From: Algibacter sp.
GTDB lineage: Bacteria; Bacteroidota; Bacteroidia; Flavobacteriales; Flavobacteriaceae
Reading direction: 5' to 3'
Assembly (NCBI RefSeq): GCF_029245835.1
Contig: NZ_JAQWOO010000090.1
Location: forward strand, 1 to 64,000
DNA: 64,000 bases
The position numbers and the translations under genes are program-made. Under the pieces are notes generated by a model. It saw only the letters and a program-made list of their open reading frames with translations. It did not search any database and had not been told where the DNA came from. The first letter of the stretch is position 1. Every line of letters begins with the position of its first letter. Positions 39,356 through 49,900 of the stretch are shown piece after piece.

Positions 39356-40669
39356 CTAGAGGTCGAAACCTAAATTAACGCCTAATTTGTTGGCTATAAT
39401 TTTGGTAATACGTTGTTTTAATTCTGGAATTTTAACTGAACTTAATACGTTATTACTAAATGCAAACATTAACAATGCTTTGGCTTCTTTTTCTGGAATA
39501 CCACGCGAACGCATGTAGAACATAGCGCTTTCGTCTAACTGTCCTATAGTACAACCGTGTGAGCATTTTACATCATCAGCAAAAATCTCTAATTGTGGTT
39601 TGGTGTTTATTGAGGCTTTATCACTTAATAAAATGTTATTGTTAGATTGAAATGCGTTTGTTTTTTGTGCTTCTTTATTTACCAGAACTTTACCGTTAAA
39701 AACACCTGTAGAGCTATCGGAAAAAATACCTTTATAGTCTTGATGACTTTCACAATTTGGTTCGATATGATGCACTAAGGTATTATGATCTACGTGTTGT
39801 TTATCGCCAATAATTGTGATGCCTTTTAAGGTAGAATCAAGACGCTCACCTTCTTGATAAAAGTTTAGATTGTTACGTATTAATTTACCACCAAAAGCGA
39901 ACGTATGCACGGAGGCAAGACTTTCTCTTTTCTGTTTAATAAAGGTGTTATCAATTAAAGACGCATGCTGGTTATCGTTTTGAATCTTGTAATAATCTAC
40001 AATGGCACGTTTGTTAGTGAAAATTTCAGTAACACTATTGGTTAAAACGGGATTGTTAGTTAAACTTTGATGACGCTCAATAATTTGTACATGCGAGTTC
40101 TCATCTACCACAATTAAATTACGTGGTTGTAACATGGTAGCAGATTCTTTTCCTGTTGAAAAATGTAGAATTTGAATGGGTTTTTCTACCACTTTATTTT
40201 TAGGAATATGAATGTAAGCGCCTTCGTTTGAAAATGCCGTATTTAATGATGCTAGGCTATCTTTTGTAGCAGCTTTATTGAAATAATTTTCAATAATCAA
40301 TTGGTATTTTGGTTTGTTTAAAGCGGAAGACATTAAACATACATCAATACCATCGTGTGTGGTTTGAGATAAGTGTGACGAATATTTACCATCTATAAAG
40401 ATGATTTTATAAGTATCAATATCATGGATGAAATATTTTTTAACATCCTTATAATCTAAAGCGTTTTCTTGTTTTGGGAAAACACTATAGTCTTCTTTTA
40501 AAACACTGTTTAAAGAGGTGTATTTCCAATCTTCTTCTTTTTTTGAAGGAAAGCCTTTTTCTTCAAATACTTTTATAGCATCAGATCTCACATCATGGAT
40601 ATATCCATCTATATCGACATGATTTTCGAATGCTAAAAATGATGATACTAATTTTTCTTTTAAATCCAT
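39356..40669 (-). CDS. sufD: Fe-S cluster assembly protein SufD
   Basis: A 437-aa scaffold subunit of the SufBC2D complex. It has the SufBD beta-helix core (GAYIHIPKNKVVEKPIQILHFSTG, then HTFAFGGKLIRNNLNF and HGCTIGQLDESAMFYMRSRGI with the conserved His and Cys of the SufD end) and the N-terminal KKEEDWKYTSL motif typical of the family. SufD supports iron acquisition in the scaffold. It follows sufC after 134 bases with a CAGT-rich tract. Confidence 0.95.
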   Translation of the reverse strand: MDLKEKLVSSFLAFENHVDIDGYIHDVRSDAIKVFEEKGFPSKKEEDWKYTSLNSVLKEDYSVFPKQENALDYKDVKKYFIHDIDTYKIIFIDGKYSSHLSQTTHDGIDVCLMSSALNKPKYQLIIENYFNKAATKDSLASLNTAFSNEGAYIHIPKNKVVEKPIQILHFSTGKESATMLQPRNLIVVDENSHVQIIERHQSLTNNPVLTNSVTEIFTNKRAIVDYYKIQNDNQHASLIDNTFIKQKRESLASVHTFAFGGKLIRNNLNFYQEGERLDSTLKGITIIGDKQHVDHNTLVHHIEPNCESHQDYKGIFSDSSTGVFNGKVLVNKEAQKTNAFQSNNNILLSDKASINTKPQLEIFADDVKCSHGCTIGQLDESAMFYMRSRGIPEKEAKALLMFAFSNNVLSSVKIPELKQRITKIIANKLGVNLGFDL

Positions 40670-40803
40670 TTCTATCAGTTTTCAGTCTTAGTCTCAGTTT
40701 TCAGTAAAAAGATAAACCAGAAAAAACTGTGTGCTATTTTTAAAATTTTGAGTATTCAGTTTTGAGTAAGCTACTGCAAACTGTAGCTGGATACTGCAAA
40801 CTT
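40670..40803. other. CAGT-rich intergenic tract between sufC and sufD
   Basis: On the plus strand it carries repeated CAGT(C/T)TT-type units (40676-40707) and two ACTGCAAACTG-type units near 40770-40800. A similar short CAGT tract is present at 7827-7852. No coding frame or promoter box is obvious. Confidence 0.5.
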
Positions 40804-41556
40804 TTACGCGTTTACTTCTTCTTTAATCCAGTCGTAGCCTTTTTCTTCTAGCTCATGTGCTAGCTCTTTGCCACCAGATTTTACAATTCTTCCATTGTAC
40901 AAAACATGTACAAAATCCGGAACGATATAATCTAATAAGCGTTGGTAATGCGTAATCACAACCACTGCATTGTCTTTGCTTTTTAATTTATTTACACCGT
41001 TAGCTACAATACGAAGTGCATCAATATCTAATCCAGAATCGGTTTCATCAAGTATTGCTAATTTTGGTTCTAACATTGCCATTTGAAAAATCTCATTACG
41101 TTTTTTCTCTCCACCAGAAAATCCTTCGTTTAAAGAGCGCGATAAAAATTTTCTATCAATTTCTAATAACTCAGATTTTTCACGAATCATTTTTAGCATA
41201 TCTTTCGCAGGCATATCTTCTAAGCCTTTAGCTTTGCGCGTTGCGTTAATAGCAGTTTTCATGAAATTAGTAACAGATACTCCAGGGATTTCTACAGGAT
41301 ATTGAAAGGATAAAAATACGCCTTTGTGAGCGCGCTCTTCTGCTGCTAGTTCTTCTATATCTTCGTTTTCAAAAAAGATGTTTCCTTTTGTAACTTCGTA
41401 CTCTTCTTTTCCTGCAACAACTGATGCCAATGTACTTTTACCAGAACCGTTAGGTCCCATTATAGCATGAACTTCACCTGGTTTTACTTCAAGGTTAATA
41501 CCTTTTAAGATGCTTTTACCTTCAACACTTGCGTGTAAATTATTTATTTTTAACAT
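40804..41556 (-). CDS. sufC: Fe-S cluster assembly ATPase SufC
   Basis: A 250-aa cytosolic ABC ATPase of the SufBC2D scaffold. Walker A GPNGSGKST at 34-42, the ABC signature as FSGGEKKRNEI, Walker B region KLAILDETDSGLDIDAL, and the His switch VVITHYQRLL. The ATG is 1 base after the stop codon of the small lipoprotein gene, so the three genes from sufB are tightly coupled. Confidence 0.97.
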   Translation of the reverse strand: MLKINNLHASVEGKSILKGINLEVKPGEVHAIMGPNGSGKSTLASVVAGKEEYEVTKGNIFFENEDIEELAAEERAHKGVFLSFQYPVEIPGVSVTNFMKTAINATRKAKGLEDMPAKDMLKMIREKSELLEIDRKFLSRSLNEGFSGGEKKRNEIFQMAMLEPKLAILDETDSGLDIDALRIVANGVNKLKSKDNAVVVITHYQRLLDYIVPDFVHVLYNGRIVKSGGKELAHELEEKGYDWIKEEVNA

Positions 41557-41557
41557 A

Positions 41558-41980
41558 CTATTGATTTCCTAGTTTTATAACTTTATTTTCGTCTTTTGGT
41601 GATGCTTTGATACTTAATATTTCAACAACTTCAACCTTGTTCTCCCAAAGAATCTTTTCGTCTTTTTGGTTTGTTATTTTTCCTCGTATTTCAACTTGAA
41701 CCATATCAGTTGGCTCTGTTTTGTATTGTTGTGCTTGATTATTTAGTGCTTCTAATTTATCTGTAATTAGAATACCATAAATCTCTGCATGTGTTTGTAA
41801 AACGGCAGCACCATCATAATACACAAATTCGCCTTTTAATAGTGTTAGTCCATCATTTTGCTTAGCTGTTTTTTCAGAATCGTCATTACTTATAGTGTCT
41901 TCTGATTGTTGAGATTTTATATCTTTTTTACAACTTAAAAATGCTGAAATACATACAAGTAGGATTAATACTTTTTTCAT
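41558..41980 (-). CDS. Small lipoprotein encoded inside the suf operon
   Basis: A 140-aa predicted lipoprotein, MKKVLILLVCISAFLSC with C17, followed by KKDIKSQQSED. A longer form from an ATG at 42001 would overlap sufB and put seven residues ahead of the signal, so 41980 is preferred. The mature part is mostly beta (LLKGEFVYYDGAAVLQTHAEIYGILITD, then MVQVEIRGKITNQ and ENKVEVVEILSI) and has no visible metal site. I do not recognise a family. It sits between sufB (10 bases upstream) and sufC (1 base downstream) in an operon of cytosolic proteins, which is odd for an exported protein. Confidence 0.75.
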   Translation of the reverse strand: MKKVLILLVCISAFLSCKKDIKSQQSEDTISNDDSEKTAKQNDGLTLLKGEFVYYDGAAVLQTHAEIYGILITDKLEALNNQAQQYKTEPTDMVQVEIRGKITNQKDEKILWENKVEVVEILSIKASPKDENKVIKLGNQ

Positions 41981-41990
41981 TTTAATTAAT

Positions 41991-43439
41991 TTAACCGACA
42001 CTTCCTTCTAAACTTATTTCTAATAATTTTTGTGCTTCAACAGCAAATTCCATAGGGAGTTTATTTAAAACATCTTTACTAAAACCGTTTACGATTAATG
42101 CAATGGCTTTCTCTGTATCAATACCTCTTTGGTTACAATAGAAAATTTGGTCTTCACCAATTTTACTAGTGGTTGCTTCGTGTTCAATTTTTGCTGTTTT
42201 GTTTTTAGCTTCTATGTACGGGAATGTATGTGCACCGCATTCGTTACCCATTAACAAACTATCACATTGTGAAAAGTTACGTGCATTTTCGGCTCTTGAA
42301 TTTATTTGAACTAAACCACGGTAACTGTTTTGAGATTTCCCTGCTGAAATTCCTTTTGAAATGATAGTGGATTTCGTGTTTTTTCCTAAGTGGATCATTT
42401 TTGTCCCTGTATCGGCTTGCTGGTAGTTGTTAGTTACGGCTATTGAGTAAAACTCACCAACTGAATTATCACCTTTTAAAACACATGACGGATATTTCCA
42501 AGTTACTGCAGATCCTGTTTCTACCTGAGTCCAAGAAATTTTTGCGTTTTTCTCGCACAAACCACGCTTGGTAACAAAGTTAAAAACACCCCCTTTACCT
42601 TCAGCATTTCCAGGATACCAGTTTTGTACTGTAGAATATTTTATTTCAGCATCATCTAAAGCAATCAGCTCAACAACGGCTGCGTGTAATTGATTCTCGT
42701 CACGACTTGGTGCCGTACAGCCTTCAAGGTAACTTACATAACTGCCTTCATCAGCAATTACTAAAGTTCTTTCAAATTGTCCAGTTCCTGCTTGATTTAT
42801 TCTAAAGTATGTAGATAATTCCATTGGGCAACGAACGCCTTTTGGAATGTAGCAGAAACTTCCATCACTAAATACAGCAGAATTTAAAGCGGCGTAAAAG
42901 TTGTCTTTTTGCGGGACTACAGTTCCAAGATGTTTTTTTACAAGTTCTGGATGCTCTTTTATAGCTTCAGAAATACTCATAAAAATAATGCCTTTTTCTC
43001 CTAATGTTTTTTTGAATGTAGTAGCTACAGAAACAGAATCTACAACAACATCCATGGCTACATTAGCTAACTTTTTTTGTTCATCAATAGAGATACCAAG
43101 TTTAGCAAATGTTGCTAAAAGCTCAGGGTCTACTTCATCTAAACTATCGTATTTAGGTTTGCTATTTGGTGCAGAATAATAGGAGATACCTTGAAAATCT
43201 GGTTTTTTGTAATGCACATTTGCCCATTCTGGCTCGGTCATTTCTTTCCAGACTTTAAAAGCTTCCAAACGCCATTCAGTCATCCATTCTGGTTCTTCTT
43301 TTCTTTTAGAAATAGCACGAACAATATCTTCGTTTAAACCATTAGGAAACGTGTCAGATTCTATATCTGTATAAAACCCGTATTCATATTCCTTGGTTTT
43401 TAATTCTTCGCGTAAATCATCCTCGGTATATTTCGACAT
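41991..43439 (-). CDS. sufB: Fe-S cluster assembly protein SufB
   Basis: A 482-aa core scaffold subunit on which the cluster forms. It shows the SufB-specific N-terminal part ([31 protein letters not shown]), [45 protein letters not shown] and the C-terminal [15 protein letters not shown] with the conserved cysteine, followed by [21 protein letters not shown]. Length and motifs match the family. It starts 15 bases after the SufA-like gene. Confidence 0.97.
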
Positions 43440-43454
43440 ATTGCTTTCTTATTT

Positions 43455-43784
43455 TTATAATGAAAATGATTCGCCACAACCACAAGTACGGTTAGCGTTA
43501 GGATTGTTAAAAACGAAACCCGTTCCGTTTAATCCTCCTGAATATTCTAGTGTTGTTCCTATTAGGTATAAAAAACTTTTTTTGTCGACTATGATTTTTA
43601 TGTCATTGTCTTCAAAAACTTTATCGCCTTCTTGTTGTTCTTTATCAAAATTCAAATCATAAGATAACCCAGAACAACCGCCACTTTTTACGCCAACACG
43701 AACATAGTCGATAGCTGCATTGAAACCATCATCAGCCATAAGCTCAATCACTTTCTTTTTAGCTGTTTCAGAGACTTTTATCAT
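43455..43784 (-). CDS. sufA: A-type Fe-S carrier protein (SufA/IscA family)
   Basis: A 109-aa cytosolic A-type carrier that moves Fe-S clusters to target proteins. The three conserved cysteines are C37 (SGGCSGLSY), C101 and C103 (RTCGCGESF). It is the first gene of the suf operon, preceded by a TATATTTG box. The choice of sufA over iscA follows from the SUF neighbourhood. Confidence 0.95.
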   Translation of the reverse strand: MIKVSETAKKKVIELMADDGFNAAIDYVRVGVKSGGCSGLSYDLNFDKEQQEGDKVFEDNDIKIIVDKKSFLYLIGTTLEYSGGLNGTGFVFNNPNANRTCGCGESFSL

Positions 43785-43849
43785 ATTATTTTTTAATTAA
43801 ACTTAGTTTTGAATTAATATTTTTATTAAGACAGTTTCTAAATAGAGCA

Positions 43850-43857
43850 CAAATATA
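43850..43857 (-). promoter_or_regulatory. Promoter -7 box (TATATTTG) for the suf operon
   Basis: An exact TAnnTTTG match on the minus strand, 65 bases before the sufA start. No palindromic IscR- or Fur-like site was evident. Confidence 0.5.
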
Positions 43858-43998
43858 CAATATAAGTCCCTGAAAATCGAATAACCTAACATTATATTAT
43901 TATATAGTTAGATAGCTTTTTCTTATCAATTTATGAAGTACTCAATTAAAGGGTATTACCTTCTTTTGACTAATTTTATTGAGTAATACTTTTAAAGT

Positions 43999-44208
43999 TT
44001 AAGCGGTTCTTTTTTTGTAAAGAAGCGATGAGAATTTTTCGTTTTCTTTCAGAGAAACGGGCGTTATAGATCCATTATCCTCAAATTTAAAATACTTTTT
44101 ACAACATTTACATATTAACTCTGGAGTATTTGTACTAGCATGACTCAAACGAAAATAATTATGCCCATAAGTGGTACAAAAAATATTAGATGTTATACTT
44201 TTATTCAT
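43999..44208 (-). CDS. Small zinc-ribbon-like protein, paralogue 1
   Basis: A 69-aa protein with C11...YGHNYFRL then LICKCCKKYF. The pattern Cys-x3-GH...Cys-x-Cys-Cys resembles the short DUF1660-type proteins. It shares this layout with the genes at 49897-50157 and 50231-50497, although its second half is diverged. Likely to bind one zinc ion; function unknown. It stands alone between the suf promoter region and the diheme enzyme gene. Confidence 0.6.
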   Translation of the reverse strand: MNKSITSNIFCTTYGHNYFRLSHASTNTPELICKCCKKYFKFEDNGSITPVSLKENEKFSSLLYKKRTA

Positions 44209-44312
44209 AAAACTAATCTTTTCGTTGGATTAAATTAATTAAAAATTAATAAACAAACAGCTTAAAAACGTTTTTTTTCGATGAAATTCGTTTTTGTATA
44301 GTATTATTCTTT

Positions 44313-45359
44313 TTAGTTGGTATTAACGAAATTGTAGTCAGATAGAGCTAATAAGAATGCTTTTAAATCTGCTTTGTCGGTATCTGATAAACCTATCCCA
44401 CCTTGAGTTACTTTTTTCATTAAAGGATCTATAGTTGAAGAATTTTTTAAGCCCTCGCTATAATGATTGATTACGTCTTCTATAGTTTCAAATCTGCCGT
44501 CATGCATATACGGAGCGGTAAAAACTAAATTTCTGAGTGATGGTGTTTTAAACTTTCCATTATCTGCAGGGTCGCCTGTTACAGCTCCTAACCCTAAGTC
44601 GATAAAAGTGTCGTCTAATCCATTGTTATGAAACATATTGTCTGTCCAGAGTGGGTTTTTATCACTTCCATGGCAATGAAAACAATCACCTTTTGCCTCA
44701 TCCATAAACACATTAAATCCGTTTGATTCTTCAGGAGTTAGTTCAGTTTCACCTAAAAGATATTTATCAAATTTTGAATTAGCAGAAATTAAAGTGCGTT
44801 CAAATTGTGCTATAGCTTTTGTAATTAAAGTTGAATCAATTTTTGAAGTGCCAAAGGCTTGTTCGAATAAGTTTGGATATTCATTATGTTGCTGTAATTT
44901 TTGTTCAACGTTGGGCCAAGTATTATTCATCTCGATAGGGTCTGTAACTGGAATAAAAGCCTGATGTTTTAAGCTAAATGTGTTGCCATCCCAAAAGAAT
45001 TTTTCATCGTAATTCCATGCTAAATTGAAAAGCGGCATAGAATTCCGTTCTCCCAAAATACCAGCAACACCGACGCTAAACCTATCTGAATCCGTAAATG
45101 CATTTTCTGGAGCATGACAATCGGCACATGCTTGGGTATTGTTAGCAGATAAAATGGTGTCGAAAAACAGTTTTTTGCCTAATGCAACACCTTCAATAGT
45201 TTGTGGGTTATCAATAGGGATTACAGGCGCTAATATATTATCCTTAAAAAGTTTTGGAATTTCAAGAGGACTAGGAGTTGCTAAATATTTTTCAACAGAT
45301 TCATTTTCGCATGAAAAAAATAAAGCAATCAAAATAATATGTAGTAATCCTTTTTTCAA
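44313..45359 (-). CDS. Diheme cytochrome c peroxidase / MauG (MbnH-like) lipoprotein
   Basis: A 348-aa exported lipoprotein: lipobox FFSC with C17, followed by ENESVEK. It has two c-type haem sites, C78-A-D-C81-H82 and C226-F-H-C229-H230, and the bridging Trp region FFWDGNTFSL (W123) of the CcpA/MauG family. Bacterial CCPs reduce peroxide; MauG-type relatives oxidise protein residues. Because the gene follows an MbnP-family gene, the enzyme may be an MbnH-type modifier that oxidises a Trp of MbnP to kynurenine; this is inference from the methanobactin-associated pair. It is the last gene of a four-gene lipoprotein operon, 9 bases after MbnP. Confidence 0.88.
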   Translation of the reverse strand: MKKGLLHIILIALFFSCENESVEKYLATPSPLEIPKLFKDNILAPVIPIDNPQTIEGVALGKKLFFDTILSANNTQACADCHAPENAFTDSDRFSVGVAGILGERNSMPLFNLAWNYDEKFFWDGNTFSLKHQAFIPVTDPIEMNNTWPNVEQKLQQHNEYPNLFEQAFGTSKIDSTLITKAIAQFERTLISANSKFDKYLLGETELTPEESNGFNVFMDEAKGDCFHCHGSDKNPLWTDNMFHNNGLDDTFIDLGLGAVTGDPADNGKFKTPSLRNLVFTAPYMHDGRFETIEDVINHYSEGLKNSSTIDPLMKKVTQGGIGLSDTDKADLKAFLLALSDYNFVNTN

Positions 45360-45368
45360 AATAGATGT

Positions 45369-46136
45369 TTATGGATTATCTGATTTTAAACTAAACACAT
45401 TCTGACCGTTTTCAAACATCTTGATTTGAGCATCAGAATTCGCCATCAAACTACTATTAAGCTGATTCAAATCCCAAGTATTAGGGGTTTTAAACCACTC
45501 AGCAATATTCATTTCAATATTAAAAGTAGTATTTGTTGAGATTGTAATGGCTCCAAGACTTACATTGAAAAAGGTGTCTTGCGGAAAGGTTGGGTTTGGT
45601 CCGGGATTGTCTGCGGCTCTAATAGCATGATAATTAAATCCTTGTTCTTGATTTGAAGCATTTAAAAAATTACCATCAAATTGCATGTAATGATAGCCAC
45701 CACCTAACATTTCTGGCACAATCCAAGAAGTATTTAAATCGGGATAATTACCATTATTATCTTCATTGTTAAAACCGAAGGTAAACGTAACGTTGGTATA
45801 AGATCCTGTTGCAACAGATGTTATTGATGTAAAGGATAAGTTTTCGTTATTAGTAACATCAACCAAATTGTAACCATCTAAAACGGTTTGACTGCCGTCA
45901 GTTTTATAAAAAATTACTTTTGAAATAAGATAACGTAATCGCTCAATACTTAATTGATTCCCAAATGCATTTGTAAATTTGATGGTGTTAAAATCTGCAT
46001 TAGTAACTGGTGTTCCGTCCCAATTATGACTAAAATTTAAAGTAATATTAGCTTGTGAAACCTTATCATCATTGTCTTCACTACAAGATAATATTGTAAA
46101 CATAAAAATCAATAGTATCAGGATGGATTGTTTCAT
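45369..46136 (-). CDS. MbnP-family copper-binding-like lipoprotein
   Basis: A 255-aa lipoprotein: MKQSILILLIFMFTILSC with C18, then SEDNDDK, which looks like a surface export signal. The mature part matches the MbnP family: ITLNFSHNWDG near the start, FTNAFGNQLSIERLRYLISKVIFYKTDG, then SWIVPEMLGGGYHYMQFDGNF, NYHAIRAADN and a terminal NIAEWFKTPNTWDL. Known MbnP proteins bind copper with His ligands and a kynurenine made from Trp by the partner MbnH. Candidate residues here are H and W in SHNWDG and W/H in SWIVPEMLGGGYH. The start codon overlaps the upstream stop (TAATG), which shows translational coupling. Confidence 0.82.
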   Translation of the reverse strand: MKQSILILLIFMFTILSCSEDNDDKVSQANITLNFSHNWDGTPVTNADFNTIKFTNAFGNQLSIERLRYLISKVIFYKTDGSQTVLDGYNLVDVTNNENLSFTSITSVATGSYTNVTFTFGFNNEDNNGNYPDLNTSWIVPEMLGGGYHYMQFDGNFLNASNQEQGFNYHAIRAADNPGPNPTFPQDTFFNVSLGAITISTNTTFNIEMNIAEWFKTPNTWDLNQLNSSLMANSDAQIKMFENGQNVFSLKSDNP

Positions 46137-47482
46137 TATTTTATTTTACAAATCAGTACGTCTGTGAATCCTTTATTTTCTAAAACATCAAGGTTTGAGC
46201 TGCCAGAATCACCTACTACTATGATGCTTTTATCATTAAGTTCAACAGCATCATAGGCAAAATCAATTTCTGAACCGCCAATTGTTTTTTGCCATTTTAG
46301 ATTGCTATTGGTGTCTATTTTTATAACCCAAGCATCGTTCTGACCATTATTAATGGTTAAATCGCCATTTGAACTTCTTGAGCTTCCAGAAATAATGAAG
46401 TCTCCATTTTGGGTTTTTGATATGGAACGCGCTACATCAAAACTATTACCGCCAAAAGATTTTTCCCAAATAAGACTACCTGATGGCGAAATTTTAATGA
46501 CCCATAAATCTGCAGCTCCGTTATTTATTGAAACGTCTTTATCATTACTTCTAGTATCTCCGACTATAATATAGTTGCCGTCGTTTGATTTAGTTATAGC
46601 TCTTGCTTCATCAGTTTGTGATCCTCCAAAAGATTTTTCCCAAAGTAAAGTGCCAGTATCAGATATTTTAACCACCCAAAAATCATAACCACCTTTCTCT
46701 TCTTGAATATCAACATCATCACTATCTGAGGAACCTATAATGATATAGCCGTTATCGTCTGTTTGAATAACATCAAAAGGTGTGTCTGTAAATGTACCAC
46801 CGTAAAATTTACTCCATTGTTTTTCGCCCAAAGCGTTTATTTTTATAGCCCAATAATCGCCACCAGCGTGTTTAACTGAAGCGGCTTTACTATTCCCTTC
46901 GCCATTTGATGCAGAAACATCTAGAACACCTAAAAGGAGATACCCGTTATCATTGGTTTCAATTATAGACATCCCATTATCAGCTCCTGAAAAACCAAAA
47001 GATTTTTCCCATAAAATAGTTCCAGAAGCATTTAACTTTGAGACCCAAAAATCATTAGCTCCCGCATTATCAGTTATATTACCTTTATTACTTCTACTGA
47101 AACCAATAATAGCATAACCGCCATCTGTTGTTTGAATAATATCATTCCCTCTATCATCATCATCCCCACCATACGTTTTTTGCCATTGAAGCGAGTTGTT
47201 TTGATCAAACTTAAGTAGCCAATAGTCATAAGATTCGTTAGATTTGTTAGTTACATCGCCATCCATACTTTGTGTATGTCCTAAAATAGCGTATCCGCCA
47301 TCGGAGGTTTTGGTAATGGCTTTTGCGCTTTCGTTTTTAGTGCCACCAAGGGTTTTTATAAAATCGATTTCTATTGAAGTATCGATAGAGATTATTGAAT
47401 CATTATTATCATTTTTAGAGCAGTTAAAAGTTATAAAGATAATACTTAGCGGAATTATGAGTTTTTTAAAGTAGTTGTTCAT
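46136..47482 (-). CDS. Seven-repeat (beta-propeller-like) lipoprotein
   Basis: A 448-aa lipoprotein from ATG 47482 (MNNYFKKLIIPLSIIFITFNC, C21, then SKNDNND). A start 33 bases upstream would overlap the previous gene and add a polar stretch, so it is not preferred. The mature part is made of about seven repeats of 50-65 residues, each with DGGYAIIG, a D/N-rich loop, DxWVVKI and LxWEKSFGG. The last repeat closes at LICKIK. This would build a seven-bladed propeller, a common protein- or ligand-binding scaffold. No catalytic residues are visible. Function unknown, but it is coupled to the MbnP gene. Confidence 0.8.
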   Translation of the reverse strand: MNNYFKKLIIPLSIIFITFNCSKNDNNDSIISIDTSIEIDFIKTLGGTKNESAKAITKTSDGGYAILGHTQSMDGDVTNKSNESYDYWLLKFDQNNSLQWQKTYGGDDDDRGNDIIQTTDGGYAIIGFSRSNKGNITDNAGANDFWVSKLNASGTILWEKSFGFSGADNGMSIIETNDNGYLLLGVLDVSASNGEGNSKAASVKHAGGDYWAIKINALGEKQWSKFYGGTFTDTPFDVIQTDDNGYIIIGSSDSDDVDIQEEKGGYDFWVVKISDTGTLLWEKSFGGSQTDEARAITKSNDGNYIIVGDTRSNDKDVSINNGAADLWVIKISPSGSLIWEKSFGGNSFDVARSISKTQNGDFIISGSSRSSNGDLTINNGQNDAWVIKIDTNSNLKWQKTIGGSEIDFAYDAVELNDKSIIVVGDSGSSNLDVLENKGFTDVLICKIK

Positions 47483-47495
47483 AAATGATGAATTG

Positions 47496-48770
47496 TTATT
47501 CACTTTTCCTAACAATAAATAAACCTCTGTTGATGTCGTTTATAATAATATTTCCGCTTGAAAAATAGGGGTAAACACTCCATGCGCCATTAAAATTTGT
47601 GCCATCGTTTTCTGGATGTGTATCAAAAAAACCAGTTTCATTAATCGAATTATTAGCAATATTTGTAATGTCTAGTACCCGCATTCCGGCAGTATAATTT
47701 GCTAGAAAATATGAGTTTCCTTTAACATAGCCATTATGGTCTATAGCAGCAGAGGCTCCTAAATAGTCCGTTTTATATTTTGGATCGTCTAAATCTGTAA
47801 AATCAAAAATGATGGTTCTGGTATTTGTGCCAAAATCGTTTTCATCAAGTTCATCACCAAAAATAAAATATTGCATATCTTCTGTAAACCAACCTTGATG
47901 AGCATAACCTGGATTTGAGTATGAGATTTCTGAAATAAATATAGGGTTAGTTTTGTCTGTTACATCAATGATTACAACTTTATTAGCTCCAAAGCGTTTT
48001 CCGTTACTTCCTATATAGATTTGTTTTCCTGTGTAGTCTGTATCTGGTCCATTATAAGTTACAACTTGGGCGTCATGGGAATATCCATTATCTGCAAAAC
48101 CTCCAATTTCTAGTGGGTTGGTTGGATTGGAAATATCAATAAAAACAGGTCCGCCATCGTAGATATTACAACCTACTAGGTATGCTACACCTTCACTTTC
48201 ATTAATAAAAATATTATGGCATTCAGTAACACCATTATATACAAAATCTGCATTGAAAGTCTGCGGCGGGTTTGTAATATTTCTTAATCGGGTTAAATTA
48301 AATACTTGCATACCATGTGTACCCGCATTATCAGCAACAATAAAAACATGGTTGTTGTATATTTTAGCATCTCGCCAAGAATTGGCAATGGTTTCAGTTT
48401 CCAGTCGTCCTAAAAAAACAGGATTAATGGGGTTGGTTACATTCACAAAAGCGGTACTATTTGTTGTGCAAACAATAGCATATTCATTGCCATTAGATGC
48501 GTCTGTCCAACCCCAAATGTCATTTCCAGCAATAGTATTTGTGTTTGTAGTTAAACTTGATGCTAATGTAGATAATGGCATGTGTGCCATTAAGTCGTAA
48601 CCATTACAAGGGTAGTTTCCAGCAAAACCATTTTCACAGAAGGCTAAAGCGTTGTCGGAATCATCATTCTCACTAATGATACTATCATCATCATCATTTT
48701 TACAAGATTGAATATTTAAAACAATAAGTAATAACAAAAAAATAGAAGGGGTTGAATTACAGAATTTCAT
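47496..48770 (-). CDS. Choice-of-anchor B family lipoprotein with LVIVD repeats
   Basis: A 424-aa lipoprotein: LIVLNIQSC with C23, followed by KNDDDDS, a strong match to the surface lipoprotein export signal. The mature part has about six beta-propeller-like repeats of the LVIVD type (AFVNVTNPINPVFLGRL, VFIDISNPTNPLEIG, VVIIDVTDKTNPIFIS, TIIFDFTDLDDPKYK, MRVLDITNIANNS), matching the choice-of-anchor B family. Four cysteines (C44, C55, C102 and others) might form disulfides. It is the first gene of the MbnP operon and probably a surface-exposed binding protein. A near-consensus box (TATCTTTA) lies 42 bases upstream. Confidence 0.82.
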   Translation of the reverse strand: MKFCNSTPSIFLLLLIVLNIQSCKNDDDDSIISENDDSDNALAFCENGFAGNYPCNGYDLMAHMPLSTLASSLTTNTNTIAGNDIWGWTDASNGNEYAIVCTTNSTAFVNVTNPINPVFLGRLETETIANSWRDAKIYNNHVFIVADNAGTHGMQVFNLTRLRNITNPPQTFNADFVYNGVTECHNIFINESEGVAYLVGCNIYDGGPVFIDISNPTNPLEIGGFADNGYSHDAQVVTYNGPDTDYTGKQIYIGSNGKRFGANKVVIIDVTDKTNPIFISEISYSNPGYAHQGWFTEDMQYFIFGDELDENDFGTNTRTIIFDFTDLDDPKYKTDYLGASAAIDHNGYVKGNSYFLANYTAGMRVLDITNIANNSINETGFFDTHPENDGTNFNGAWSVYPYFSSGNIIINDINRGLFIVRKSE

Positions 48771-48853: not shown

Positions 48854-49900
48854 ATGATAGAAGATAAAAATCAACAACGAACACAGCTAAGTGACTTAGG
48901 TGAATTTGGGTTAATTGAGCATTTAACAAAAAATTTTAAAGTAAAGCAAAAGTCCACTATAAAGAGTATTGGCGATGATGCCGCTGTGTTAAATTTTGAA
49001 AACAAGAAAGTAGTTGTTACTACAGATTTACTTGTTGAAGGCGTACATTTTGATTTGAGTTATATGCCATTAAAGCACTTGGGGTATAAAGCAATTATTG
49101 TGAACCTGTCTGATGTTTATGCTATGAATGCCAAAGCCACTCAGGTAACCGTTTCTATTGCGGTATCTAATAGATTTCCATTAGAAGCTTTGGAGGATTT
49201 GTATGCTGGTATTGAAGCTGCAGCAAAACTTTATAATATAGATGTTGTTGGAGGCGATACAACATCATCTAATAAAGGTTTGTTGATTTCGGTTACGGCT
49301 ATTGGGGAGGTGGAATCTGAGAATGAAGTGTACCGAAGTGGTGCAAAGCCAAATGATTTATTAGTTGTTTCTGGAGATTTAGGAGGCGCCTATATGGGCT
49401 TGCAGGTTTTAGAACGTGAAAAAGAAGTGTATAAGGTTAACCCTAATAGTCAGCCAGATTTAGAGCCTTATAATTATATTATTGAAAGGCAGTTAAAACC
49501 AGAAGCAAGACAAGACATTATTAAATTATTAGTCGATTTAGACGTAAAGCCTACGTCTATGATTGATATTAGCGACGGTTTATCTTCAGAAATTATTCAT
49601 ATCTGTAAACAAAGTAAGGTAGGTTGTGATTTGTACGAAGAAAAAATACCATTAGACCCTCAAGTTATTTCAACTTGTGAAGAGTTTAATATAGACAGTA
49701 CAACAGTGGCTTTAAATGGCGGAGAGGATTACGAATTACTTTTTACGGTATCTCAAAAAGATTTTCCAAAAATCAAAGCAAATCCGAGTTTGAGTATTAT
49801 TGGTTATATAAAAGAAGAAAAAGAAGGTATTCATTTAATTACACGCGCTAACACTAAAATCCCTATTACAGCGCAAGGCTGGAAGAATTTTAACGATTAA
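48854..49900 (+). CDS. thiL: Thiamine-phosphate kinase
   Basis: Cytosolic kinase that makes thiamine diphosphate from thiamine monophosphate. The 348-aa protein has the ThiL signatures: SIGDDAAVL (35-43), TTDLLVEGVHFDLSYMPLKHLGYKAIIVNLSDVYAMNAKATQ, the GGDTTSSNKG loop, VVSGDLGGAYMGL, IDISDGLSSEI and the NGGEDYELLF motif. The stop overlaps the end of a minus-strand small gene. No thiamine riboswitch is visible upstream. Confidence 0.95.
   Translation: MIEDKNQQRTQLSDLGEFGLIEHLTKNFKVKQKSTIKSIGDDAAVLNFENKKVVVTTDLLVEGVHFDLSYMPLKHLGYKAIIVNLSDVYAMNAKATQVTVSIAVSNRFPLEALEDLYAGIEAAAKLYNIDVVGGDTTSSNKGLLISVTAIGEVESENEVYRSGAKPNDLLVVSGDLGGAYMGLQVLEREKEVYKVNPNSQPDLEPYNYIIERQLKPEARQDIIKLLVDLDVKPTSMIDISDGLSSEIIHICKQSKVGCDLYEEKIPLDPQVISTCEEFNIDSTTVALNGGEDYELLFTVSQKDFPKIKANPSLSIIGYIKEEKEGIHLITRANTKIPITAQGWKNFND

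Follow-up and report, generated by a model that had tools for sequence, protein, structure and literature searches.

A conserved four-gene order in Flavobacteriaceae joins two propeller lipoproteins to an MbnP without the WxW motif and a MauG-like diheme enzyme

We analyzed a 64,000-nucleotide stretch of Algibacter sp. DNA (positions 1 to 64,000 of contig NZ_JAQWOO010000090.1, assembly GCF_029245835.1), here called the window, in which four genes of the minus strand (44313–48770) stand in a conserved order. In the direction of transcription they encode the choice-of-anchor-B propeller lipoprotein AnchB, a second propeller lipoprotein with seven repeats, an MbnP-family lipoprotein, and a MauG/MbnH-like diheme enzyme. 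MbnP and MbnH are known for jointly forming a kynurenine-dependent copper site, for which the first Trp of a WxW motif is converted to kynurenine. This motif is missing from the window MbnP and from most of its orthologues, and the diheme gene is mostly kept. With somewhat less than even confidence, we propose that the genes specify an outer-surface copper/redox unit in which MbnP would work independently of kynurenine, the MauG-like enzyme would oxidize a partner protein, and AnchB would be the working part. An earlier note, made from the sequence alone, had read the same four open reading frames, and the list of minus-strand frames bore out both them and their coordinates.

Gene order in relatives

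The earlier note had asked for a survey of the four-gene order in Bacteroidota. A PF20243 search over 60 genomes gave a match in 35, the window's own included, with 50 hits listed. From these, 43 hits were fetched, corresponding to 40 regions; those left out were the hits in G054, G056, and G058, two in G059, one in G055, and the window's own. In 15 of the 40 fetched regions (one with its AnchB cut by the contig end), the four genes were on one strand in the order AnchB–second propeller–MbnP–diheme enzyme; these 15 include 9/9 same-genus relatives. Of 20 further AnchB regions, 6 contained the full four-gene set and 9 had AnchB plus the second propeller and no more of the set; the other 5 had AnchB by itself or accompanied by a weak second hit, with a contig end cutting one of them.

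A scan with an AnchB alignment yielded 569 confirmed relatives, the best 80 of which are referred to as the named loci; counts made on them thus describe near relatives. Lacinutrix, Tenacibaculum, Winogradskyella, Algibacter, Polaribacter, Kordia, and Aquimarina are represented, and some titles give higher groups only. The four-gene order was present in 62/80 named loci, followed by sufA in 52 and without sufA in view in 10 (6 near a contig end); L114 and L119, where MbnP and the diheme gene are not adjacent, are counted among the 62. Some of the genomes surveyed above are the same contigs as named loci (L098–L177), so the counts of 15/40, 6/20, and 62/80 are not additive. In 8/80 loci, AnchB and the second propeller were followed directly by sufA. 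MbnP without a diheme gene in view was found in 5/80 (3 near a contig end), 2/80 ended after the second propeller, and 3/80 showed AnchB only. The survey agrees with the conservation that the earlier note had made a condition of its reading: the four-gene order is kept well beyond chance.

AnchB was present in two to four tandem copies in 19/80 named loci (e.g., L114, L119, L144, L146, L160, and L176). In Kordia, Aquimarina, and Mesonia, the MbnP slot of the operon held a WxW-type MbnP in 7/7 loci. Six of these had a diheme gene in view, which lay directly after MbnP in 4; one other gene separates the two in L114, the diheme gene follows about 4 kb on in L119, and it was not in view in L143. 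Because the WxW-type MbnP fills the same slot, as seen on the tree, MbnP can change in type and keep its link to the propellers. The loci without MbnP and diheme enzyme formed a single clade on the second-propeller tree (16 rows, support 99). The operon can thus split into its two halves, yet the association between them outlasts replacement of the MbnP type.

MbnP and its diheme partner

The MbnP gene (45369–46136, minus strand) encodes a lipoprotein of the GGGYH type. The protein scored 99 bits against PF20243 (cut-off 27), which places it in the family. For its AlphaFold2 model (predicted local distance difference test [pLDDT] 91.7, from a 65-row alignment), the six top Foldseek matches were all chains of 7l6g, the Methylosinus MbnP, with a best E value of 2e-7. 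The model aligned with 7l6g at Z 16.4 over 213 residues with a root mean square deviation of 3.6, and the next best match had Z 4.8. A PDB sequence search with either the window MbnP or a WxW-type relative as query returned nothing useful; 7l6g came up through the fold comparison and with a mixed profile (E 0.019). Pfam score and predicted fold firmly identify the window protein as an MbnP, in line with the earlier assignment.

TIGR04052 (MbnP_like_WxW) gave no hit to the window MbnP at E values up to 1, and no WxW occurs in its sequence. The same model matched three WxW-type relatives at 45–57 bits, under its cut-off of 140. We assembled 74 distinct MbnP orthologue sequences, the window's included. 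WxW was found in 12 and was lacking in 62, the window MbnP among them. Position 138 is Trp in 47/74, including the window (W138), and Phe in 27/74; position 140 is Val in 62/74, including the window (V140), and Trp in 12/74. All 27 Phe138 proteins are without Trp at 140, and thus have no Trp at either candidate place. Three smaller alignments put the first Trp of WxW at window W138. A larger alignment, together with profile comparisons through 20 M-x-W-P relatives, put it at V140, and direct profile comparison of the orthologues with WxW proteins did not settle the choice. We favor position 140, a Val in the window, as the probable kynurenine position. The loss of WxW and the 27 Trp-less sequences hold under both alignments.

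A full-length diheme gene was present in 24 of the 27 Phe138 loci; of the others, L110 and L162 are cut by contig ends, and L117 has no diheme gene in view. On the tree of 71 diheme partners, the switch between Trp and Phe at MbnP position 138 took four changes, all four forced by starred branches. Judged from the alignments, the diheme enzyme is mostly kept in lineages whose MbnP would be unable to make kynurenine at the known place.

Three other MbnP residues, H149, H170, and M231, were invariant in 74/74 orthologues and recurred without exception in the 31 distinct GGGYH-type relatives that other genomes supplied (33 new rows minus two repeats, L178 being the window and L179 being G108). 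Among 35 other MbnPs, two of them GGYH-like, His170 was kept in 34, position 149 was mostly K, R, or I, and position 231 was Met in 10. We infer from this pattern a putative Cu(I) site made of two His and one Met. W221 was likewise invariant (74/74) and is a candidate for oxidation.

In a class-wide search, 177/295 genomes contained an MbnP at E values up to 1e-8; the query was our own MbnP alignment, which favors this branch. Twenty GGGYH-type hits from this search were fetched with flanks, and all had a diheme neighbor; neither AnchB nor the second propeller was detectable in the flanks of these 20 regions. Two loci in genomes of another family (L209 and L211) have two tandem MbnP genes before one diheme gene, with AnchB not detectable. 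WxW-type MbnP–diheme pairs in L032, L034, L047, and L052 (also L043) sit in a different recurring cassette, where the gene before the pair encodes a small protein with a C.GKC.L motif and the gene after it a protein whose motif is CDLCGC or CDTCGC. The window genome contains one MbnP. The earlier note had stressed the absence of methanobactin genes. This stands for the methanobactin enzyme MbnB, since PF05114 had no match in the window genome, which is 97% complete; the other methanobactin genes, which the claim also covered, were not searched for.

The diheme gene (44313–45359, minus strand) encodes a c-type lipoprotein with two CxxCH motifs. The protein scored 195 bits against PF03150 (CCP_MauG) and thus belongs to the CCP/MauG superfamily. 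Its best PDB sequence match was 6e1c, labeled "Di-heme enzyme" (E 2e-48), which we take to be MbnH. Against the MbnH family model TIGR04039 it reached 251 bits, under the cut-off of 362.85 and outside the family so defined; three diheme partners of WxW-type MbnPs in relatives were likewise under this cut-off (224–236 bits). Scores against TIGR03791 (MauG; 188 bits, cut-off 443.85) and the hydrazine synthase gamma-subunit model (21.5 bits, cut-off 625) were also too low for membership. The heme motifs named in the earlier note, C78-C81-H82 and C226-C229-H230, were present in 73/73 distinct orthologues, as was W123. Y300, at the axial-ligand position, was also found in 73/73 and aligned with a Tyr in 6e1c and with a Met in the Shewanella CcP 3o5c. 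Tyr in place of the axial Met is the substitution that sets MauG apart, where it has a ligand role. By this residue, the enzyme is MauG/MbnH-like rather than a bacterial cytochrome c peroxidase. PF03150, 6e1c, and Tyr300 together support the earlier view of a true MbnH/MauG relative.

Propellers, anchors, and flanking genes

AnchB, the first gene of the operon (47496–48770, minus strand), scored 516.7 bits against TIGR04312 (cut-off 100), well within the choice-of-anchor-B family. Its AlphaFold2 model (pLDDT 90.7) has a propeller-like strand pattern, which we read from the strand list as seven predicted blades. Five His residues, H152, H185, H232, H291, and H345, were invariant in 64/64 aligned sequences, and there are invariant D and E residues too. 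In the strand list of the model, successive blades have one of H185, H232, H291, and H345 where their first strand begins or next to that point, which suggests a predicted ring of His positions. The fold matches of AnchB included 5c2v_B at rank 7, 2ece (SBP56) at rank 22 (E 3.9e-7), and 8ptf (BtuG2) at rank 26. SBP56 was considered as a specific relative, which we do not claim: 2ece was one among hundreds of propellers and was absent from the 50 matches listed by Z.

The second propeller gene (46136–47515, minus strand) probably starts at the ATG of codon 12 (about 47482) rather than at the start of the open reading frame. Its lipoprotein product is SBBP-like, with a weak match to NF047494 (LipL53-type SBBP; 46 bits, cut-off 400) that leaves it outside that family, and seven repeats were counted by eye. 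Propeller Trp residues were also considered as oxidation substrates and set aside: no Trp was conserved only alongside the diheme enzyme, in a weak test, since the loci without the enzyme are one clade. R322 of the second propeller (numbering of the open reading frame) was present in 79/79 proteins with MbnP and diheme neighbors and in 0/16 without them; it may be an interface residue or may reflect plain descent.

A lipobox Cys was read by eye in all four translations, as the earlier note had described. Anchors were scored by text pattern in 133 distinct AnchB relatives: 76 had a lipobox only, 39 a type IX secretion system (T9SS) tail only, 1 both, and 17 neither. In 10 of the 19 multicopy AnchB loci, a single type IX copy came first and a single lipid-anchored copy after it. 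Proteins with a type IX tail are exported to the cell exterior. Because the lipid anchor is swapped for such a tail, AnchB probably works outside the cell.

Export signals published for Bacteroidetes lipoproteins consist of acidic residues after the lipid-bearing Cys (PMC5080379). At least two acidic residues at +2 to +6 after the Cys were counted in 65/75 MbnPs, 65/102 second propellers, 22/73 diheme enzymes, and 49/133 AnchB proteins; this was a simple text pattern with no control set, and some lipoboxes were misplaced (in the diheme enzyme, the pattern once caught a heme motif). The surface setting assumed in the earlier note is supported by the AnchB lipobox or type IX sorting domain and by MbnP residues resembling the published signals. 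As judged from these sequence features, a surface location is best supported for AnchB, reasonable for MbnP, and weakly indicated for the diheme enzyme.

The operon is bordered by genes that we named by eye. Upstream and divergent is thiL (48854–49900, plus strand), a homologue of which was present in 74/80 named loci. Downstream are the suf genes (39356–43784, minus strand), namely sufA, sufB, sufC, and sufD together with a gene for a small lipoprotein. In most named loci, as in the window (39356–48770), suf follows the operon directly and has the same orientation. A 69-codon open reading frame (43999–44208, minus strand) that separates sufA from the diheme gene encodes a small Cys-containing protein; small frames of similar look (GH.Y, paired Cys) were seen beside thiL in L143, L147, and L172. 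The thiL–AnchB spacers of 28 loci, read by eye, were conserved among the closest relatives, and no regulator site was seen in them.

A possible surface copper/redox unit and known systems

We suggest that the products of the four genes act together as a copper/redox unit on the outer surface of marine Flavobacteriaceae. MbnP would hold Cu(I) through H149, H170, and M231 in place of the kynurenine-dependent site. The diheme enzyme would use H2O2 to oxidize a partner protein, in the way that MauG acts on a complex that includes a propeller; because the WxW motif is missing in most orthologues, the target would not generally be the WxW Trp. AnchB, with its five invariant His residues, may be the working part, either a metal-dependent enzyme or a binding protein. 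The second propeller would be its usual companion, and MbnP and the diheme enzyme would be add-ons that load or mature AnchB; the proteins may form a complex. In its most specific form, with a kynurenine-free MbnP using a two-His one-Met Cu(I) site and a retargeted MauG-like partner that matures or feeds a surface His-ring AnchB, the proposal is doubtful.

Several observations weigh against the copper/redox unit. L117 and L143 have MbnP and no diheme gene in view, though the sequence continues. In one whole clade of 16 loci, both propellers are kept where MbnP and the diheme enzyme are missing, and the AnchB His residues are >95% conserved in the 16 sequences of that clade. Because this clade keeps AnchB and its His residues equally, AnchB does not need MbnP or the diheme enzyme. 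Neither propeller has a Trp conserved solely in diheme-bearing loci. The best fold match of AnchB, the phosphotriesterase 5hrm, could point to a hydrolase and not to a copper enzyme; many unrelated propellers match AnchB at Z near 30, and function is not fixed by the fold.

There is a small but real chance that AnchB, like the propeller phosphotriesterase of Sphingobium, is an extracellular hydrolase that depends on a metal, with MbnP and the diheme enzyme co-expressed for a separate purpose. Foldseek ranked 5hrm first (E 2.1e-11), the two structures aligned at Z 30.3 over 335 residues, AnchB has invariant H, D, and E residues, and it is kept where MbnP and the diheme enzyme are absent. However, identity to 5hrm is about 12–16%, and the sequence-profile comparison (E 0.018, short stretches) gave no real match; the many propellers at similar Z also count against a specific relationship. 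Moreover, a hydrolase leaves the fixed gene order and the same-slot replacement of the MbnP type unexplained.

Rather unlikely, in our judgment, is a plain surface or periplasmic H2O2 peroxidase, with MbnP as a copper or electron-donor partner and no protein modified. The products of suf are sensitive to oxidants and to copper, and the position of the operon next to suf would suit such a role, as would membership of the diheme enzyme in the CCP_MauG family. Yet the Tyr at the axial position in 73/73 orthologues is a MauG/MbnH trait, and wherever a named locus has a diheme gene running with the operon (62/62), an MbnP stands before it.

A reading along the lines of the earlier note would have the diheme enzyme oxidize an MbnP Trp to kynurenine, creating a copper site at the surface to which the propellers dock; MbnP, CorA, and MopE have such sites. 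This is unlikely here. Both proteins are true members of their families, and the accessible part of PMC3912023 describes CorA as surface associated, with Cu(I) and a kynurenine nearby, and as co-transcribed with a diheme protein. W138 is present in the window and in 47/74 orthologues, 12/74 have Trp at both places, and the invariant W221 could be another target. As stated, the step is nevertheless not supported: WxW is lacking in the window MbnP as in the rest of the 62, TIGR04052 did not hit the window MbnP, and in the bridging alignment V140 occupies the place of the kynurenine Trp. In addition, 27/74 orthologues are Trp-less at both places, with four W/F switches at position 138 on the diheme tree, yet 24 of these 27 loci keep a full-length diheme gene.

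That the gene order is mere inherited synteny at a stable thiL–suf spot, without a common function, is improbable. In its favor, the flanking genes are conserved and the genomes are those of related flavobacteria, but the median gaps between operon genes in the named loci are near zero (7, 3, and 5 bases) against 133.5 bases to sufA, and neither AnchB duplication nor exchange of the MbnP type breaks the order.

The gene order ties an MbnP–diheme pair to extracellular propellers, kept as a unit across many genera. In this branch, common in marine Flavobacteriaceae, the key residues of the diheme enzyme are intact and its known target motif is mostly gone, and the natural series of MbnPs (WxW, W only, and F) offers a means to learn what MauG-like enzymes oxidize. 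That MbnP is accompanied by a diheme protein in places other than methanobactin operons has already been published (PMC3621798). A literature search, with subscription papers mostly outside its reach, returned no paper on the four-gene set or on WxW-less MbnPs, which agrees with the earlier suggestion that the combination may be undescribed.

The nearest known system is MbnP–MbnH of Methylosinus trichosporium OB3b, which shares the MbnP fold and an adjoining diheme partner with Tyr at the same alignment position. The window differs from it by lacking an MbnB match and WxW and by adding two propellers, and its MbnP branch has invariant His149 and Met231 besides the shared His170. CorA–CorB and MopE–SACCP of methanotrophs similarly combine a surface Cu(I) protein with a co-transcribed CCP/MauG-like protein (PMC3912023, same partial text). 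Compared by description, CorA and MopE conserve the kynurenine Trp and two His residues, whereas in the window branch the WxW Trp is not conserved. BtuG propellers of Bacteroides resemble AnchB as surface lipoproteins that, in the partial account available, capture vitamin B12, and BtuG2 (8ptf) was among its fold matches; unlike BtuG, the window operon has no TonB-dependent transporter. Hydrazine synthase unites a diheme MauG-like subunit and a propeller subunit in a single complex (PMC12607021); its propeller chain 5c2v_B was also among the AnchB fold matches, though chemistry and organisms differ.

Two further systems combine a MauG-type protein with a propeller. MauG acts with pre-methylamine dehydrogenase, and its substrate complex contains a seven-bladed propeller and a small modified subunit. 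The likeness lies in the MauG-like enzyme of the window (TIGR03791, under the cut-off); methylamine dehydrogenase subunits were absent from the family hits of the four proteins, the rest of the genome not having been searched. Methanethiol oxidase (SBP56) has a periplasmic rather than a surface setting. It is copper dependent with conserved His residues, and its gene stands in an operon-like set with SCO1 and mauG, as the available portion of PMC5739008 reports. The likeness here is a copper protein with conserved His residues beside a putative copper chaperone and a MauG homologue, with 2ece among the AnchB matches; the propeller belongs to another family and the chaperone is SCO1 rather than MbnP. 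Our three-part reading, in which MbnP and a MauG-like enzyme would serve a propeller, is comparable to MauG with methylamine dehydrogenase or to SCO1 and MauG with methanethiol oxidase.

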